The notes beneath the pieces were generated by a model. It did not search any database. It saw only the letters and a program-made list of their open reading frames with translations, and had not been told where the DNA came from. From Spirochaetaceae bacterium (GTDB lineage Bacteria; Spirochaetota; Leptospiria; Leptospirales; Leptonemataceae): a stretch of 64,000 nt of DNA. Where the stretch lies: positions 1 through 64,000 of the forward strand of contig PCBI01000016.1 of the NCBI GenBank assembly GCA_002730875.1, written 5' to 3'. This document shows positions 1 through 6,800 of the stretch, piece after piece. The stretch's first letter is position 1. Every line of letters starts with the position of its first letter. The position numbers and the translations under genes are program-made.

Positions 1-1
1 C

Positions 2-184
2 TGGGAATCTGAAATGGCAAAAGAGAACCACGCGTTCGTCATGACGTCCTCCCAGTCAAATGAAGATGCTCAGCATTTCTACAGAAAACTCGGTTATGCT
101 GATTCTGGGTCCCTCAATCTTCCGGGGGAACCCGTTGAGCTACTCTTTATCAAAGACCTTAGGAAACTCGGCAACAGCGCCTAA
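2..184 (+). CDS. GNAT-family N-acetyltransferase, C-terminal part (gene starts outside the window)
   Basis: The frame is open from base 2 to a TAA at 182-184 and gives about 60 residues. It contains the C-terminal GNAT signature: a beta strand ending in FVMTSSQSNEDA, then HFYRKLGYADSG (the alpha4/FYxKLGF segment) and a last strand, VELLFIKDL. GNAT enzymes transfer an acetyl group from acetyl-CoA to an amine; the substrate cannot be read from this fragment. The stop codon lies inside the first heptamer of the following attC site (GCC TAA C), which is typical of a cassette gene. A longer open frame starting at 60 in another register runs through the attC site and is not a gene. Confidence 0.8.
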   Translation, partial: WESEMAKENHAFVMTSSQSNEDAQHFYRKLGYADSGSLNLPGEPVELLFIKDLRKLGNSA

Positions 185-356
185 CTGCACTTTAAGCGCT
201 GCGGGCTCGCTTCGCTCGCTCCTCGAGTTTTCGCGCTTTTTTGTCCGGAGGGTGCTCGGCCAGACGGCCGCTGAAGCTGCAATCCCTGCTCTCCCCAAAA
301 TCTGTTCGGCCTGGCCTGGTTGCAGCCGCGCTTTCGCTTAAAGACCTACGTTAGGC
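179..356 (+). repeat. attC recombination site 1 (178 bp)
   Basis: It starts with GCCTAAC (179-185) and ends with GTTAGGC (350-356). Adjacent L-boxes CTTTAAGCG and CGCTTAAAG are complementary. The interior shares a block with sites 2144-2383 and 3506-3780 (GCTCGCTTCGCTCGCTCCTC, then CGGCCGCTGAAGCTG, GGCCTGGCCT and TGCAGCCGCG). This is the best preserved site of the array. Confidence 0.82.
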
Positions 357-392
357 GAAAGTGCGGCCTTCCGTAGCATTGAATCCAGAATT

Positions 393-1199
393 ATGCTCAT
401 CATCGAGATCAAGAATAGATTACATTCGCTACCAATAGTGAACTACATCTTTGTGGCGGCCCTCGTGGTTTTCGGTCTCGTGACGAGGGTTTCCTTCGGG
501 GAATCAGAACTGGAAGCCTACGCATTTGAGCCGGCCGATCCAAAGCTCTGGCAACTATTGATATCTCCCTTCTTACATGCTGGTCCTATTGCGCTTTTCT
601 ACAATGTTTTTCACTTATTTTTCTATGGTGACAATGTGGAGAATATATTTGGGTCAATTAGATATCCTTTCATATACCTTGTTTGCGGAGTTGCCGGGCT
701 TCTCGTCTATTGGTATATCTATCCTTATTCCGCCGCTTCCATCGTCGGCTCTTCGGCTTCTGTTGCTGGAATAATGGGAGCATACTTGGTGTTCTTCCCG
801 AATGCGCCGGTCCGCATAGTCGGGCAAATGCGTACAACCAAGATTGATACCCCCACTCGATTCTACATCGGATTTATTGCTTGGATCGCTATCTATCTCT
901 TTCTCGATGCAGCCTTTCAGATGTCGAGCAATGGCCGTGAAGGAAGCCTTTACATCGTCATTACTGGCCTGGTATCCGGAATATTAATAGGGGCTATTGC
1001 CCGGAAGCTCGGCCTCGTCCGTCTGCACCTCCAAGCATTCCAGAATCAATCCTCCACTCCAGGAAAACAGATCTGCCCACAATGCTATTCTGAACTCGAC
1101 ATCATTAAATCTGGTGCCTCGTACTGTGAGCATTGCCATTCTTGGATCGTAGCCGGGGCAAAGGGAACTCGAGTTCTCTCGCTCAAGCGGAAGCCTTAG
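393..1199 (+). CDS. Rhomboid-like membrane protein with C-terminal zinc ribbon; probably proteolytically inactive
   Basis: The 268-residue protein has six or so membrane segments and the rhomboid layout. The TM2 region FLHAG...YNVFHLFFYGDNVE (residues 60-83) keeps the Asn and the GDNVE turn. GSSASVAGIMGAYLVFFP (119-136) holds the nucleophile serine at about S121. The TM6 segment that normally carries the catalytic His (AHxGGFxxG) reads IVITGLVSG (188-196), with Val in the His position. The HxxxN histidine before N71 is Ala67. The serine-histidine dyad is therefore incomplete, as in rhomboid pseudoproteases. The C-terminus carries CPQC (228-231) and CEHC (245-248), a zinc-ribbon-like pair. The gene is a cassette; its start lies 36 bp after attC 1 and its stop overlaps the next attC-like site. 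Confidence 0.8.
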   Translation: MLIIEIKNRLHSLPIVNYIFVAALVVFGLVTRVSFGESELEAYAFEPADPKLWQLLISPFLHAGPIALFYNVFHLFFYGDNVENIFGSIRYPFIYLVCGVAGLLVYWYIYPYSAASIVGSSASVAGIMGAYLVFFPNAPVRIVGQMRTTKIDTPTRFYIGFIAWIAIYLFLDAAFQMSSNGREGSLYIVITGLVSGILIGAIARKLGLVRLHLQAFQNQSSTPGKQICPQCYSELDIIKSGASYCEHCHSWIVAGAKGTRVLSLKRKP

Positions 1200-1353
1200 A
1201 TTCAAGGCCGTACCGGGCCAGATCATGGCCGCACCTTCGCCGAACTGCAGCCATGCTTTGGGGGTATTTATGGCGCACGGCTGCAGACGCGCTTGGAAAC
1301 CAAAGCGCGCGCCACAAAAGGCGCTCGACTTCGCTAAAGGACATACATTATGC
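1193..1353 (+). repeat. attC-like site 2, degenerate
   Basis: The first heptamer reads GCCTTAG (1193-1199, containing the rhomboid gene's stop) and the last reads ATTATGC (1347-1353), each a decayed form of GCCTAAC and GTTAGGC. Between them, blocks of the family core are recognisable (CTGCAGCCATGC, CGGCTGCAGACGC, GCGCGCCACAAAAGGCGC, CTTCGCTAAAGGACATAC). It probably no longer recombines efficiently. Confidence 0.55.
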
Positions 1354-1427
1354 TAAATCCGCGAATTGAGGTTTCTGAGAAAATACGAAATTGACGGTCA
1401 TGCAGGCCAGTTCCCTATTGAACCCAG

Positions 1428-2120
1428 ATGGAAAATGACAGATCCCTCCGCTCTTTGGCAAAATACGGCGGTTTTCTTCTCGCCTTTAGTGCTGGATTTG
1501 TGAATATTTCTGCCCTGGCCGGTTTTTTCGGAATCCCTGTTAGCCATCTGACCGGGACTATTTCCAAGTTCTCGTTGAAACTTTCGGAAGCTCAATTCCG
1601 ATCGGCAATATTGCTCGCTGTTGTTGCCGTTAGCTTCCTGATTGGAGCCACCTTCTCCGGATACTTTATCGGCAGCTCAGATCTTAAATTTGGTCGAAAA
1701 TACGGGATAGTTCTGATCGCTCAAAGCGCTATCATACTTTCAGCTATACCTCTTTTCTCCGTGCAATCTATCTGGGCCGAGTATGCCCTTGCCTTTTCCT
1801 CGGGAATGCAGAATGCCCTGGCAACCACCTTCAGTGGCGCCATTATTAGGAGCACACATCTAACGGGCATTATTACCGATATTGGAGTCATCCTGGGAAC
1901 TTCCTTAAGGGCCAGGCGACTACTTTCTACCTGGCATCTCAGTATCCACCTCGCAATCCTCTCTGGATTCATCGCCGGCAGCCTTGTTGGATACATTTCA
2001 TTCAATGCTTTTTCAATCTTCTCGCTTCTTTTGCCGGCGGCTCTCAACTTTCTACTCGGTGCCATCTACTATATCTGGCGGGCTACAGTCGAAAAAAGCC
2101 AACGCTCTCATGACCTCTAG
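1428..2120 (+). CDS. DUF1275 (YoaK-like) family membrane protein
   Basis: The 230-residue, very hydrophobic protein has about six transmembrane segments and the DUF1275 signatures: FSAGFVNISALAGFFGIPVS and THLTGTISK-type sequence near the N-terminus, FSSGMQNALATTFSGAIIRS in the middle, then THLTGIITDIGV. Members of this family are inner-membrane proteins without an established substrate. It is the only gene between attC-like sites 2 and 3, so I read it as cassette cargo. The start ATG is the first in frame; upstream Shine-Dalgarno sequence is weak. Confidence 0.82.
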   Translation: MENDRSLRSLAKYGGFLLAFSAGFVNISALAGFFGIPVSHLTGTISKFSLKLSEAQFRSAILLAVVAVSFLIGATFSGYFIGSSDLKFGRKYGIVLIAQSAIILSAIPLFSVQSIWAEYALAFSSGMQNALATTFSGAIIRSTHLTGIITDIGVILGTSLRARRLLSTWHLSIHLAILSGFIAGSLVGYISFNAFSIFSLLLPAALNFLLGAIYYIWRATVEKSQRSHDL

Positions 2121-2143
2121 CTCAGGCCTAATTGGCGGACTTC

Positions 2144-2383
2144 GCCTAACTGCACTTTAAGCGCTGCGGGCTCGCTTCGCTCGCTCCTCGGGTTTTTATG
2201 CCCGGGGGGTCTCGGCCGACGGCCGCTGAAGCTGAAATCCCTGCTCTTGCCCCTTTCTCTTCGGCCTGGCCTCGTTGCAGCCGCGCGATTTGGGGATGTT
2301 AGAATGCGCGGCTGCAAACGCCGCTCAAGTGAAGTTGCGCGCCCCAGAAGGCCCGCAACTTCACTCAAAGACGTAAGTTAGAA
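2144..2383 (+). repeat. attC recombination site 3 (240 bp)
   Basis: It starts with GCCTAAC (2144-2150) and ends with GTTAGAA (2377-2383); the last base departs from the RRRY consensus. L-box CTTTAAGCG and the imperfect partner ACTCAAAG flank the core. The core repeats the CTCGCTTCGCTCGCTCCTCG block of site 1 and then carries an extra stretch with the inverted pair GAAGTTGCGCG / CGCAACTTC, which lengthens the stem. Confidence 0.78.
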
Positions 2384-2426
2384 AAAAGTCCGCCGGTCCA
2401 TCCTGCTTAGGAGCTAAAGATTTCAA

Positions 2427-3485
2427 ATGAAAGCTAGAAAATTTATCCTTCCAATTCTGCCCTTCCTGCTCATAAGCATAGTCTGGTATTTGCAATTCTC
2501 ATACACACCAGCGTTCCGCTCGGTTGCCGGCTTTGAGTCTGTCTCCGAGATCGCTGAAGTGGAAATAAACGGAACCAGGCAATTCCTGGTAATCAGGGGG
2601 GCGGACCGCAAGTCACCACTACTTCTCGTGCTCCATGGTGGTCCCGGCACACCCTTAACCCCACTCATGCGAAAACACAATGCGGATCTTGAAAGAGAAT
2701 TTGTGGTCGTTTACTGGGAACAAAGAGGTGCCGGAAAATCCTACTCCCTCTTCATGGAACTCCATCCATTCACGCTGGATCAATATGTAGAAGATACAAG
2801 AGCGGTAACCAACTACCTATTGGACAGATTCCAGCGACGGAAGCTGCTGCTATTGGGGCATTCCTGGGGATCTCTGGTCGGACTTACGGCGGCGCACCAC
2901 TACCCGGATCTGTATCGCGCATACATTGGCGTTGGGCAGAACATTGACTTTGTCAGGCAAGAATCACTGGCCTATTCCTTTACCATGGAGAAGGCGAAGC
3001 ACGCTAACGATGAGGAGGCTCTGAATACCCTTAAGGAAATTGGCCCACCGCAACACGGCCGGTATCCCACGGGCGAACAGGCCATTCGCAAACAACGTAG
3101 CATCCTCGCCCGCTACAATGGGGACAGCTTTCGTTACAATATCGAACAGGCGTACACAAGAGCCGTTATCGAATGCACCGAGTACTCGTGGTTCGAAAAG
3201 GCTCTCTTTACCCGGGGTATTCAAAAGAGCTTGCAAGCTGCAGAGCAGGGTCTTCAACCATACAATCTATTTGAAACAGTACCCCAGGTAAAAGTTCCAG
3301 TCTATTTCGTCACCGGTCGCCATGATGCAAATGCAGCGCCCCAATTGGTCAGCGAATACTTTCAGAAGCTTCGTGCCCCAAAAAAAGAACTACTCTGGCT
3401 GGAGAATTCTGCCCATTATCCAATGCTGGATGAGCCAGAGGCATTTCATAGAATTCTCCTAAATATTTCCGAAGCATCTAAATAG
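2427..3485 (+). CDS. Alpha/beta hydrolase, proline-iminopeptidase-like, membrane-anchored
   Basis: The 352-residue protein begins with a basic, hydrophobic N-terminal segment (residues 4-24) that should act as a signal anchor. The catalytic domain has HGGPG (70-74, oxyanion hole), WEQRGAGKS (97-105), GHSWGS with nucleophile S146, an acidic member in TGRHD and a histidine in NSAHYPM near the C-terminus. HGGPG plus GHSWG is typical of the prolyl-aminopeptidase/tricorn-interacting F1 group, which cleaves small peptides or esters; the real substrate is unknown. The ATG has an AGGAG-like site (2409-2414). It is the single gene of its cassette. Confidence 0.8.
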   Translation: MKARKFILPILPFLLISIVWYLQFSYTPAFRSVAGFESVSEIAEVEINGTRQFLVIRGADRKSPLLLVLHGGPGTPLTPLMRKHNADLEREFVVVYWEQRGAGKSYSLFMELHPFTLDQYVEDTRAVTNYLLDRFQRRKLLLLGHSWGSLVGLTAAHHYPDLYRAYIGVGQNIDFVRQESLAYSFTMEKAKHANDEEALNTLKEIGPPQHGRYPTGEQAIRKQRSILARYNGDSFRYNIEQAYTRAVIECTEYSWFEKALFTRGIQKSLQAAEQGLQPYNLFETVPQVKVPVYFVTGRHDANAAPQLVSEYFQKLRAPKKELLWLENSAHYPMLDEPEAFHRILLNISEASK

Positions 3486-3505
3486 CTAAAGCCTGGCGCA
3501 ACTTC

Positions 3506-3780
3506 GTCTAACTGCAGTCTAAGCGCCGCGGGCCTCGTTATTGTTTTGACTCCCCGGTTTTTTGGTGCCTTTATGCTCGGAGGGTGCTCTTATTCCCGAA
3601 GGGGGCTCGGCCGACGACCGCTAAAGCCGACAACCATTGGATTGCTCCAATCTATACGGGGCCTGGCCGCATCGTGACCACGCAGTTTGCGGATAGTAGA
3701 ATGCGCTACGGCAAGCGCCTCTCAAACCAAATTGCGCGTCGCAGAAGGCGCGCAACTGCGCTTAAAGACGTACGTTAGGC
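3506..3780 (+). repeat. attC recombination site 4 (275 bp, longest)
   Basis: It starts with GTCTAAC (3506-3512) and ends with GTTAGGC (3774-3780). The inner pair CGCGCGTCGCAGAAGGCGCGCAA-like region and CGCTTAAAGACGTAC precede the final heptamer. Compared with site 1 it carries extra sequence in the middle (about 3536-3700). Much longer than the 57-141 bp range usually quoted for attC sites. Confidence 0.75.
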
Positions 3781-3836
3781 GAAATCAATGCAAGCTTTCG
3801 CTTGTGTTAGGGGGGCATAAGTGGAAGATTGTCACC

Positions 3837-4298
3837 ATGTTTCAGGTTTCACCCGTTGCAACAATTAAGAACAAACGAAGTCGCCCTGAAGACGACAATT
3901 GGAGCAATTTCCCGTCCGTCATTGAACTTCTGGGCCATGTGTCCTCCGAGACCATACTGGGCCTAGACGCATTCTCGCACATTGAGGTTATATTCCTTTT
4001 TCATCTCGTATCAGAGGACACCATAGTCCTGACCGCAGAGCACCCTCGAGAAAATCCCGATTGGCCCAGAGTGGGAATATTCGCACAGAGAAAGAAATCT
4101 CGACCAAATAGAATTGGATCCACAATCTGCCGTATTGAGCAAGTGGCTGAAAGAAGTATTTCCGTCAGGGGTCTCGATGCCATCGATCAGACTCCCGTTC
4201 TCGATATAAAACCGGTAATGAAGGAATTTTTGCCGGATCGCAATACACAAATCAAGCAGCCATCCTGGTCTACGGAGCTCATGCTGGATTACTGGTAA
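3837..4298 (+). CDS. TrmO-like (TsaA/YaeB family) tRNA N6-threonylcarbamoyladenosine methyltransferase homologue
   Basis: The 153-residue protein shows the TrmO/UPF0066 beta-barrel signatures: GLDAFSHIEVIFLFH (about 41-55), HPRENPDWPRVGIFAQR, the hallmark SRPNRIGSTICRIE, and GLDAIDQTPVLDIKP near the C-terminus. TrmO proteins use S-adenosylmethionine to methylate t6A in tRNA anticodon loops; this copy lacks the C-terminal extension of the enterobacterial enzyme, so a different target is possible. I chose ATG 3837 because the homology begins there (FQVSPVATI); the open frame continues upstream into attC 4. Single gene of its cassette. Confidence 0.8.
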   Translation: MFQVSPVATIKNKRSRPEDDNWSNFPSVIELLGHVSSETILGLDAFSHIEVIFLFHLVSEDTIVLTAEHPRENPDWPRVGIFAQRKKSRPNRIGSTICRIEQVAERSISVRGLDAIDQTPVLDIKPVMKEFLPDRNTQIKQPSWSTELMLDYW

Positions 4299-4331
4299 AA
4301 CCTGGACTTCCCTGAAAGACACAGGTTAGAC
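4299..4331 (+). repeat. attC site remnant (3' end only)
   Basis: Only the 3' tail of the family is left: CTTCCCTGAAAGACACAGGTT followed by the heptamer GTTAGAC (4325-4331). The 5' half and core are missing. A short inverted pair AACCTG/CAGGTT spans the remnant, so a miniature hairpin may still form. The TrmO-like and following gene are thus separated by only 58 bp. Confidence 0.6.
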
Positions 4332-4356
4332 GAAAGCGTGCCAGGTTGCAAAAGAA

Positions 4357-4818
4357 ATGCAAACAGAGCGGTCCATAGCAAATCATACGGCACTCATTTG
4401 GAAGGATAAGCATATTCCCGACTCTCACAGCCTGATCTCCGCAATATTCTCAATGGTTCAGGGAAATGCCCTCGCGGTTCTGAGCTTTGATAGTGCGCCC
4501 TTTCGCCCATCGGACGAGGAAAAAGAACAAGGCTGGACCACCGTGGAAAAAGCATCAGTAATCCCCACTCTCGAGACCATCGATCAAGTCCCCCTGGCCG
4601 ATTTTACTGAACTCATGTTCTTCGAAACACAACCAGACACTCTACCCGAGCCTTTGGTCAACGAACATGGATTTGACCCAACGGTGGCCAACTGGGATGC
4701 TCACATAATTCTACGACTGCGTTCAATAAATCCGAAACTCTGGATTCTAGATGGCGACACGATTTCGACAATCTGCCGAGATGCAGGGATCCTCCAACTA
4801 CTGCGCTCTATTCGATAA
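4357..4818 (+). CDS. Hypothetical cassette protein
   Basis: A 153-residue soluble protein that I do not recognise. It is slightly acidic, with no signal peptide or membrane segment. The middle (SVIPTLETIDQVPLADFTELMFFE) and the end (WDAHIILRLRSINPKLWILDGDTISTICRDAG) look like well-formed beta/alpha structure. It lies between two truncated attC remnants on the same strand as its neighbours. Codon use looks like the rest of the array. The end LQLLRSIR is followed by the next attC heptamer 13 bp after the stop. Confidence 0.65.
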   Translation: MQTERSIANHTALIWKDKHIPDSHSLISAIFSMVQGNALAVLSFDSAPFRPSDEEKEQGWTTVEKASVIPTLETIDQVPLADFTELMFFETQPDTLPEPLVNEHGFDPTVANWDAHIILRLRSINPKLWILDGDTISTICRDAGILQLLRSIR

Positions 4819-4831
4819 AGGGCCCGCCTTC

Positions 4832-4866
4832 GCCTAACGTACGTTTTTAAGCGCATTTCGCGCAAC
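4832..4866 (+). repeat. attC site remnant (5' end only)
   Basis: It starts with GCCTAAC (4832-4838) followed by GTACGTTTTTAAGCGC. This is nearly the exact reverse complement of the 3' end of site 4 (GCGCTTAAAGACGTAC + GTTAGGC). The core and 3' half are absent, and the next gene starts 10 bp later, so the two flanking cassettes are effectively fused. Confidence 0.6.
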
Positions 4867-4876
4867 AGGATACCAA

Positions 4877-5824
4877 ATGAAGTCCAGGATTCAGAAGCTC
4901 CTCACTATCACTCCAGATCAAATCCGATTTTCGCTATTCATAGCCCTTACGATAAGCATAAGCATAGTAGCTGTGCGCTTCATAAACCTTGGTTACGCTG
5001 GCTATCCTGCCGAACCATTTCTCAGGCTTGAGACCGGCAGTAAGCCATTCTACTTTGCATTAATAGGGACACCCAACGCATTCAGGTTCATATTCACCAA
5101 TCACATGATGCAATACTATGCCCTACCTGGACTTCTGCCGTTTTTCTTTCTGTTGTCTCCTTATAGATTCTTAATCAATGACTTCCATGGACGCGTTGCT
5201 TCTTTCTTTCTGATTGTGACATCAGCTATTACGCTGGCTCATTTTGCCTCGTATCATTCAGAACTCGGTACCGGCTACTGGGAGAACCCTCTCCTGAAAA
5301 TCACCTTGCTGATCCTCTCTGTCCCAGCTCTAATCTACTATGTATTGCTCTTCTTTAGTGGATTGATTGTATTCTCCAAGCACGAGATATCCTGGGAGGT
5401 AGTTCAGTCTAACCTGAAGAAGCACCTATCGCGCTATTTGATCCTGTTCCTGATACTCCTTACAGCGTTTAAGGCATACCATGATTTAGGTACCGAGCTT
5501 CTCAGATACTGGGACTCTCTCTACTTGCTCCTCTTAATGTCCCTTCCTGCTGTCTTACTAAGTTTCCTACCGGCGTTCTACTATTTTCAATCGCTGTCAG
5601 GTAAGAATACCTCTTCCAGCTTGCGACTCACTCCATGCCTTCTGGCAATATTAATGATTTATTCCGCTTCTACGGTCGTATTTGGCATTCTGTATTCCAT
5701 TCTCTCCCAGGAGAGTGCCAGCACCGCCCTATTGGTCGTCCATCTGATCCTATTCTATTTGGTTTACTCTGTATTTAGCTCTTATGCTCTTGTACTAACT
5801 CACAACGCGGGTGCACAAGAATAG
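4877..5824 (+). CDS. Polytopic membrane protein of unknown function
   Basis: The 315-residue protein has about seven hydrophobic segments (for example residues 16-35, 75-95, 105-125, 140-165, 188-205, 215-240, 255-275, 283-305) and short polar loops. I recognise no family motif. Long hydrophobic runs such as LLLLMSLPAVLLSFLPAFYY argue for a real integral membrane protein. It is the single gene between a truncated attC on the left and a fuller site on the right. The ATG follows an AACAGGAT stretch with only a weak ribosome-binding site. Confidence 0.65.
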   Translation: MKSRIQKLLTITPDQIRFSLFIALTISISIVAVRFINLGYAGYPAEPFLRLETGSKPFYFALIGTPNAFRFIFTNHMMQYYALPGLLPFFFLLSPYRFLINDFHGRVASFFLIVTSAITLAHFASYHSELGTGYWENPLLKITLLILSVPALIYYVLLFFSGLIVFSKHEISWEVVQSNLKKHLSRYLILFLILLTAFKAYHDLGTELLRYWDSLYLLLLMSLPAVLLSFLPAFYYFQSLSGKNTSSSLRLTPCLLAILMIYSASTVVFGILYSILSQESASTALLVVHLILFYLVYSVFSSYALVLTHNAGAQE

Positions 5825-5993
5825 ACATATTGACCAGCGACACAGCCGAAACGTTTTCCATTTGCGCGAAGAAGGCCTGGCTCTCGCCACAGCCGCGCTT
5901 ATCGGGCACGTCAGGGGACGCGGCTGGGAACGCGCGGCGGCAAAAATGGAGCAGTCCAGGGCGCGCAACTTCGCGTGAAAAAATACGTTAGGC
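5825..5993 (+). repeat. attC recombination site 7, 5' heptamer decayed
   Basis: The 3' end is intact: CGCGCAACTTCGCGTG, then GTTAGGC at 5987-5993. The core pair CACAGCCGCGC / GACGCGGCTG is present. No clear RYYYAAC heptamer follows the preceding stop codon, so the 5' boundary is approximate. Confidence 0.6.
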
Positions 5994-6017
5994 GTAATGC
6001 GCCGATAAGGGAAGAAA

Positions 6018-6596
6018 TTGAGACCTGAGCTAAATAGAGAAACTGACCCCGAAGTCTTCATAAATTTCTATTGGTTGAAGGAAGAACTGATCGCATTCTG
6101 TAAGTATCACTCTATTCCGACCGGGGGTAAAAAGCAAGTCTTGACTCAGCGGATCTACTCCTATCTAAAAACAGGAGTCCCACCATTACATCCAAAGACT
6201 TCTATAAAAAGGACTACTAAATCGAATGCTCCCCTCTCCCTCAGTTCACGGATCCCGGAAGGATATAAGAATGATCAGCGCCACAGAGAGTTCTTCAAGG
6301 CCGAAATCGGTGATCATTTTGCGTTCAATGTCCGCTTTATGGATTGGATGAAAAACAATCCCGGAAAGACTTACAAAGCAGCGGTATCCGAATGGAAAAG
6401 AATCGACCAGGAAAGAAGGAACGGAAGGCGCAATCCGATAGCGCCCCAATTCGAGTACAATCAGTACACACGAGATTTCTTTCGAGCGAATCCTGGTGCC
6501 TCCAGAGTTCAAGCTGTGAAATGCTGGAAATATAAAAAGTCATTACCGGGCCACAATCGCTATGAACAGGATGATCTCATTGCTCTCAATGATTAA
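6018..6596 (+). CDS. SAP-domain protein (DUF6434-like)
   Basis: The 192-residue protein starts at a TTG 24 bp after attC 7, with AAGGGAAG upstream. The N-terminal part (residues 17-52, FYWLKEELIAFCKYHSIP then GGKKQVLTQRIYSYLKTG) is a SAP helix-extended-helix domain, a DNA/RNA-binding fold. The C-terminal half has repeated REFFKAEIGDHFAFN and TRDFFRANPGASRVQA motifs with WMKNNPGKTYKAAVSEWKRI, matching the DUF6434-type partner domain as I remember it. A nucleic-acid-binding role is likely but the function is unknown. Last clearly delimited cassette gene. Confidence 0.72.
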   Translation: MRPELNRETDPEVFINFYWLKEELIAFCKYHSIPTGGKKQVLTQRIYSYLKTGVPPLHPKTSIKRTTKSNAPLSLSSRIPEGYKNDQRHREFFKAEIGDHFAFNVRFMDWMKNNPGKTYKAAVSEWKRIDQERRNGRRNPIAPQFEYNQYTRDFFRANPGASRVQAVKCWKYKKSLPGHNRYEQDDLIALND

Positions 6597-6639
6597 GGTT
6601 TCTTTCAGCAGATAAAGAAAGGAGAATTCCTGGAGGCAT

Positions 6640-6800
6640 TTCGACAAACCGGGCTTTAAGCGTGGCGAACTCACTTAGCTCCCTCCTCGTTTTTTTCCCC
6701 TCCGCCCGCAGAGTGCTTTTTTGCCGAAGGGTGCCCGGCCCACAACAGCTGACGCTGAATCTGAGATACCTTATGCGGTGTGGCCGCGTCGAGACAGTTT
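6640..6800 (+). repeat. attC-like site 8, decayed
   Basis: The block CGGGCTTTAAGCGTGGCGAA, CTCCCTCCTCG, GCAGAGTGCTTTTTTGCCGAAGGGTGCCCGGCC, CAGCTGACGCTGAATCTG aligns with the first 110 bp of site 1. The first heptamer is decayed (GACAAAC) and no GTTRRRY is found downstream. Confidence 0.5.

Follow-up and report, generated by a model that had tools for sequence, protein, structure and literature searches.

The stretch analysed here, hereafter the window, comprises 64,000 nucleotides and opens at the first base of contig C16 (G000:C16:1-64000) in the genome (4.87 Mb, 20 contigs) of a Spirochaetaceae bacterium of the same family as Leptonema illini. Its positions 1-6700 hold the distal, partly decayed end of a gene cassette array with long attC-like sites (~178-275 bp). 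There is a strong case that this system works like an integron. From the sequences compared, we consider it highly probable that the window carries the end of a chromosomal array run by a XerA-type integrase without I2, the additional domain of canonical integron integrases (IntI), and the recombinase that most likely serves it is encoded at the array head on contig C20 of the same genome. These systems are best called I2-less integrons, that is, an integron variant that fails the defining IntI test, and they suggest a second, overlooked way to run an integron.

The array carries a trace of how its cassettes would have moved. If a cassette travels as a circle that is cut at G^TTRRRY, the R'' box at its end has to complement the R' box that opens it, which is the R' of the previous site. 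We therefore compared each R'' with the R' of the previous site, of its own site and of the next one. In the near-complete family genome G001 (4 contigs), where ~25 sites extend over 27 kb directly after the recombinase, all on the plus strand, full agreement of the four variable bases was found with the previous R' in 21/23 cases, with the own R' in 6/24 and with the next R' in 2/23; none of 200,000 permutations reached 21/23. In Leptonema illini, R'' and the previous R' agree in 9-10 of 10 bases, and in the genome of the window 4/8 testable junctions reach at least 9/10 (10, 9, 9 and 9 of 10), the four decayed junctions being lower. This match reads as the signature of circular cassettes cut at G^TTRRRY, and on its basis cassettes exchange at the same point as in canonical integrons, from which the array also has the separation of cassettes by attC with R''/R' boxes and inner L boxes. 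A strict site caller that required perfect heptamer complementarity was dropped, as it missed most sites, because R'' pairs with the previous R' and not with its own; the chain test was adopted for this reason, and sites were called by chaining together with arm alignment.

A search of the same genome with the right-end motif of the sites led to contig C20, which terminates inside an attC of the window's site family. Its last 4 kb contain, in order, an RND transporter, a tyrosine recombinase (C20:37605-38669, plus strand), a cassette-like open reading frame (ORF), an attI-like R' GTTAGGCGGC and cassettes with the same attC family, including one for a YbjQ-like protein. The array starts downstream of the recombinase gene, so it is not devoid of a neighbouring integrase as is demanded of clusters of attC sites lacking integron integrases (CALIN). 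Since C20 ends inside an attC of this family and the window opens at a contig end, the end of C20 and the start of C16 are most simply taken as a single array interrupted by an assembly gap. The attI-like R' and the first R'' are complementary in 10/10 bases. An arrangement of this kind, with a complement of 8-10 bases one cassette beyond the first R' that follows the recombinase, is present in eight genomes of the order (G000, G018, G004, G006, G021, G001, Leptonema illini and G023) and corresponds to the attI beside the integrase of canonical integrons. The ORF between the recombinase and the attI-like R' (L014:18671-19660, contig C20) has an attC-like end that seems broken off ahead of its R' box, and possibly represents a cassette that entered at a secondary site.

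The recombinase of C20 consists of the tyrosine recombinase core (PF00589) and a SAM-like domain, keeps the conserved R, K, H, R, H and Y positions and bears an N-terminal extension of roughly 65-80 residues. From patch II to the HxLRH motif it has 58 residues (58-67 among the I2-less proteins overall), in comparison with 99-103 in canonical IntI of Spirochaetota and other phyla. In agreement, the IntI profile TIGR02249 matches it below the cut-off and in two segments, leaving out profile positions 172-240, and its AlphaFold model (predicted local distance difference test score, pLDDT, of 80) is predicted to lack an extra helix in the stretch between patch II and HxLRH. The best family model is NF040815 (XerA), and the nearest solved structures are XerA 5hxy, the best PDB match, and IntI4 2a3v. 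Canonical IntI over the TIGR02249 cut-off occurs in 52/393 Spirochaetota genomes, and was found neither in the genome of the window nor in any of 22 family genomes. In a tree from which the insert columns were omitted, canonical IntI forms one clade (100/99); the I2-less array recombinases fall outside it, in a larger group (100/100) that excludes the XerC/XerD-type proteins of their own genomes. By this placement, the I2-less form did not arise through a recent loss within IntI. An I2-less recombinase of Candidatus Undinarchaeales (L061:10001-11059), whose contig stops right after the gene, is sister to the canonical IntI clade (99/97).

Relatives of the C20 recombinase are encoded in 10/21 other family genomes, with 37-65% identity, among them that of the cultured type strain Leptonema illini 3055T (recombinase at C1:23041-24252). 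Contigs tend to end downstream of I2-less recombinases (17 vs 7, p = 0.06), a bias that is suggestive only. At the same locus of a congener (G018), identity is 90% for the adjacent RND gene and 65% for the recombinase, while the cassettes are different: of the cassette genes of the array under study, the search of this genome found only the SAP-DUF6434 gene (56% identical), near the end of another contig that bears the same attC family. The recombinase locus is thus stable and its cassette content changes. Some cassettes recur between genomes. Downstream of the recombinase, G005 and G007 (L053, L056) have cassettes that begin with TTGACCAAAAT, and such cassettes lie also inside the G001 array (L047), which suggests that this type is common to more than one genus, and an ORF-poor cassette starting near TTGGCCCTGTCGTGGAATGCACC is common to G004 and G006, in the first kb after the recombinase (L051, L054).

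Recombinase relatives were also collected from 84,980 species genomes. In Bacteroidota, I2-less relatives have arrays directly downstream in Rufibacter sp. SYSU D00344 (at least 9 chained sites of 66-74 bp each), Winogradskyella ursingii, Seonamhaeicola aphaedonensis, Algibacter onchidii and others. Downstream of I2-less recombinases, 57 chained plus-strand sites were counted in 299 kb, in comparison with 12 in 441 kb upstream. No IntI over the cut-off was found in 19 genomes with I2-less relatives, and the control genome (L116) was positive. The array evidence in L092 (Bacillota) and L080 (Peregrinibacteria) is weak and was not used.

The stems of the attC sites differ from those of canonical integrons as well. 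By the same arm-alignment procedure, 39/40 canonical stems have at least one bulge (29 of them exactly two, at the expected extrahelical positions), compared with 14/70 I2-less stems. As the sites within one locus are related, counts per locus are safer: a majority of stems is bulged in 13/14 canonical and 4/20 I2-less loci (Fisher p = 6e-5). The L box of the array under study is a 9-bp match without interruption, lacking the extrahelical bases that mark the L-box stem of canonical attC and serve as docking points of I2. In the I2-less loci outside the Leptonema family, nearly all from Bacteroidota, positions with A in the left arm and G in the complement of the right arm outnumber the reverse 78:0, in 15/15 loci. 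At these directional positions the top strand has A.C mismatches where the bottom strand has G.T wobbles, so that in Bacteroidota all of them would favour folding of the bottom strand. The bottom-strand hairpin is predicted to be the more stable one in 65/70 sites and in 18/20 decided loci. This comparison of energies covers the I2-less sites, the array orientation not being fixed in the canonical controls.

In the mechanism that we propose, cassettes would leave attC sites as circles and enter at an attI that lies immediately 3' of the recombinase gene. Strands would be exchanged between the G and the TTRRRY of the R box, and the folded bottom strand of attC would be the substrate. Without an I2 helix, and with extrahelical bases mostly absent, strand choice would have to be set in another way, probably through the asymmetry of the left and right spacers together with G.T wobbles by which the bottom-strand hairpin alone is stabilised. 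From these comparisons we infer that the cassettes are moved by this recombinase, with single strands as substrate, and that the system is active at present. As a tentative extension, which we rate a little below an even chance, I2-less integrons would form an ancient lineage parallel to IntI, possibly the state before IntI acquired I2. Single-stranded attC hairpins would be recombined in them with neither I2 nor extrahelical bases, bottom-strand G.T wobbles and spacer asymmetry would set the choice of strand, and I2 would be dispensable for integron function.

Alternative explanations diverge in how much of this they accept. A Xer-like double-strand system shares the recombinase half and disputes only the single-strand half: the same I2-less recombinase would act on duplex palindromic sites with ordinary second-strand exchange, the hairpins being inverted binding sites. 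The closeness of the protein to XerA by family model and fold fits this, IntI itself retains an ancestral double-strand activity on attI (PMC4792948), and no block to second-strand exchange is known without I2 (PMC7790495). If only the duplex mattered, however, neither the 78:0 direction of the A.C/G.T positions nor the greater bottom-strand stability in 18/20 loci would be expected, and we regard this explanation as unlikely, at about one chance in four. Considerably less probable is an orphan array (CALIN), whose cassettes were placed by a canonical IntI, since lost or acting in trans, the neighbouring recombinase being unrelated. CALINs, which have no intI, are frequent and have been interpreted as degraded integrons (PMC9024848), the end of the array in the window is decayed, and the 52 Spirochaetota genomes with IntI show that such an enzyme exists elsewhere in the phylum. 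Yet eight genomes of the order, like several Bacteroidota, have an I2-less recombinase at the array head, and canonical IntI over the cut-off was found in none of them; the attC stems differ systematically from those of IntI type, and the site is kept in the congener while its cassettes differ. A dispersed family of palindromic intergenic repeats that looks like cassettes by chance has next to no probability. Isolated attC-like pieces of the window's site family do lie far from the array (G000:C6:988722-988856, L192), but the complementarity of R'' to the previous R', the single orientation and the adjacency to a recombinase would all go unexplained, and the permutation test in G001 contradicts it.

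Several observations weigh against an array run by the I2-less integrase. The array in the window is itself decayed and broken by the assembly gap. In the genome G008 no array was seen with the I2-less XerA-type relative, and none was seen either with the rhizobial and sphingomonad I2-less XerA-type recombinases (L095, L105-L110). Those I2-less stems that are bulged (14/70) depart from the general pattern, and the stems of the Leptonema family were scored over just their outer 9-11 bp, which is compatible with an extrahelical base deeper in the stem. Also, a canonical IntI may formerly have acted in trans on individual arrays.

With regard to the window itself, eight plus-strand genes within 1-6600 alternate with eight related sites (A-H), also read on the plus strand. 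The right-end and left-end consensus of the sites have 3 matches each in the 64 kb, compared with 0.02 and 0.00 in shuffled sequences. The first gene (2-184, no Pfam match) is truncated by the contig end, with only its 3' end present, and stops inside the R'' of site A (179-356, 178 bp; R'' GCCTAAC, L'' CTTTAAGCG, L' CGCTTAAAG, R' GTTAGGC). A rhomboid-family protease (393-1199, PF01694) follows, then the degenerate site B (1239-1353, GCCGAAC...ATTATGC), the R'' of which complements the R' of site A in 9/10 bases, a DUF1275 membrane protein (1428-2120, PF06912), site C (2144-2383, GCCTAAC...GTTAGAA), an alpha/beta hydrolase (2427-3485, PF00561/PF12146), site D (3506-3780, 275 bp, GTCTAAC...GTTAGGC) and a TrmO-type tRNA methyltransferase (3789-4298, PF01980). 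Site E is a right-end remnant (4295-4331, R' GTTAGAC) and site F a left half only (4832-4855, R'' GCCTAAC), complementary to the R' of E in 9/10 bases; between them lies a gene for an unknown protein (4357-4818), and a second one follows F (4877-5824), both without a Pfam match. Site G (5846-5993) combines a degenerate R'' CCGAAAC with an intact R' GTTAGGC, and precedes the last cassette gene (6018-6596), with the SAP and DUF6434 domains, the one with a counterpart in the congener, there close to the end of an array. The decayed left half of site H (6643-6695) closes the array, which terminates near 6700; no further sites were found in the rest of the 64-kb window, and an Rfam search of the window gave no match.

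An earlier note, made from the window alone, had read this region as the downstream part of a cassette array of a probable spirochaete, with its own attC family and single, unrelated cargo genes, and each of these points is borne out. Its statement that stops sit at the first heptamer and starts soon follow the last also holds, with stops inside R'' or at most 47 bp from it and starts 8-75 bp after R'. The description of the sites as bounded by RYYYAAC and GTTRRRY is valid in part: both heptamers are intact only in A and D, while C ends in GTTAGAA, B is degenerate, E and G keep the right end only and F and H the left end only, so that the remaining sites are decayed at one or both ends. The sites are moreover far longer than an attC usually is. 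Of the head of the array, which the note placed upstream, the attI was found as the attI-like R' on C20; the intI with an extra domain between patches II and III was not, either in the genome or in its family, and an I2-less XerA-type recombinase stands at the array head in its place. As to the gain or loss of cassettes that it proposed to look for, the gene content of the congener differs, and the opposite outcome, a gene order conserved in distant relatives, was not seen, only one cassette gene being found in the congener.

Two repeats were observed outside the arrays proper. An open frame of C20 contains a 72-bp tandem repeat in five copies (L014:6417-6778), and in Leptonema illini repeats of the type CGCCCGACCG...AATACTCC lie a few kb past the array (L048:15969-17391).

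Accounts of I2 present it as the gain from which integron integrases arose, a domain exclusive to these enzymes and required for their activity, and software defines integrons by it. Escudero et al. reported that I2 is present in no other protein and described it as the route to single-strand recombination (PMC7790495), and the additional domain was necessary for activity according to Messier and Roy (2001, as cited in PMC9668308). Among spirochaetes, Wu et al. (2013) described integrons only in Treponema (PMC3607928), and an IntegronFinder survey named one complete integron in Bacteroidetes proper, that of Salinibacter ruber (PMC9024848). In the open-licence literature, with subscription papers and preprints outside the search, we found no description of I2-less integrons in Leptonema, Leptospira, Turneriella or Bacteroidota. 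If our explanation is true, integrons have been under-counted, as whole lineages of Leptonema relatives and Bacteroidota would be missing, I2 would be one solution among others, and living intermediates would allow the origin of integrons to be tested. Such a test is feasible, as Leptonema illini is a cultured species. Furthermore, this type of array resembles those that spread resistance genes.

Compared with canonical chromosomal integrons such as those of Treponema and Vibrio, the system has the same one-orientation arrays, attC ends of RYYYAAC/GTTRRRY type, G^TT cut, cassette-circle signature and attI beside the integrase, which points the same way as the array, as it does in Treponema (PMC3607928). 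It differs in an integrase without I2, with an extra N-terminal stretch and outside the IntI clade, and in attC that are often longer (up to 275 bp) and mostly without extrahelical bases in their stems. With XerA and XerC/XerD it shares the catalytic core without I2, but the recombinase is located at the head of a cassette array, stands apart from the XerC/XerD-type proteins of the genomes in the tree and carries the N-terminal extension. Standard software would class these loci as CALIN or miss them, because it requires an IntI-specific profile (PMC9668308); unlike a CALIN, they do have a recombinase at the array head, though one other than IntI.

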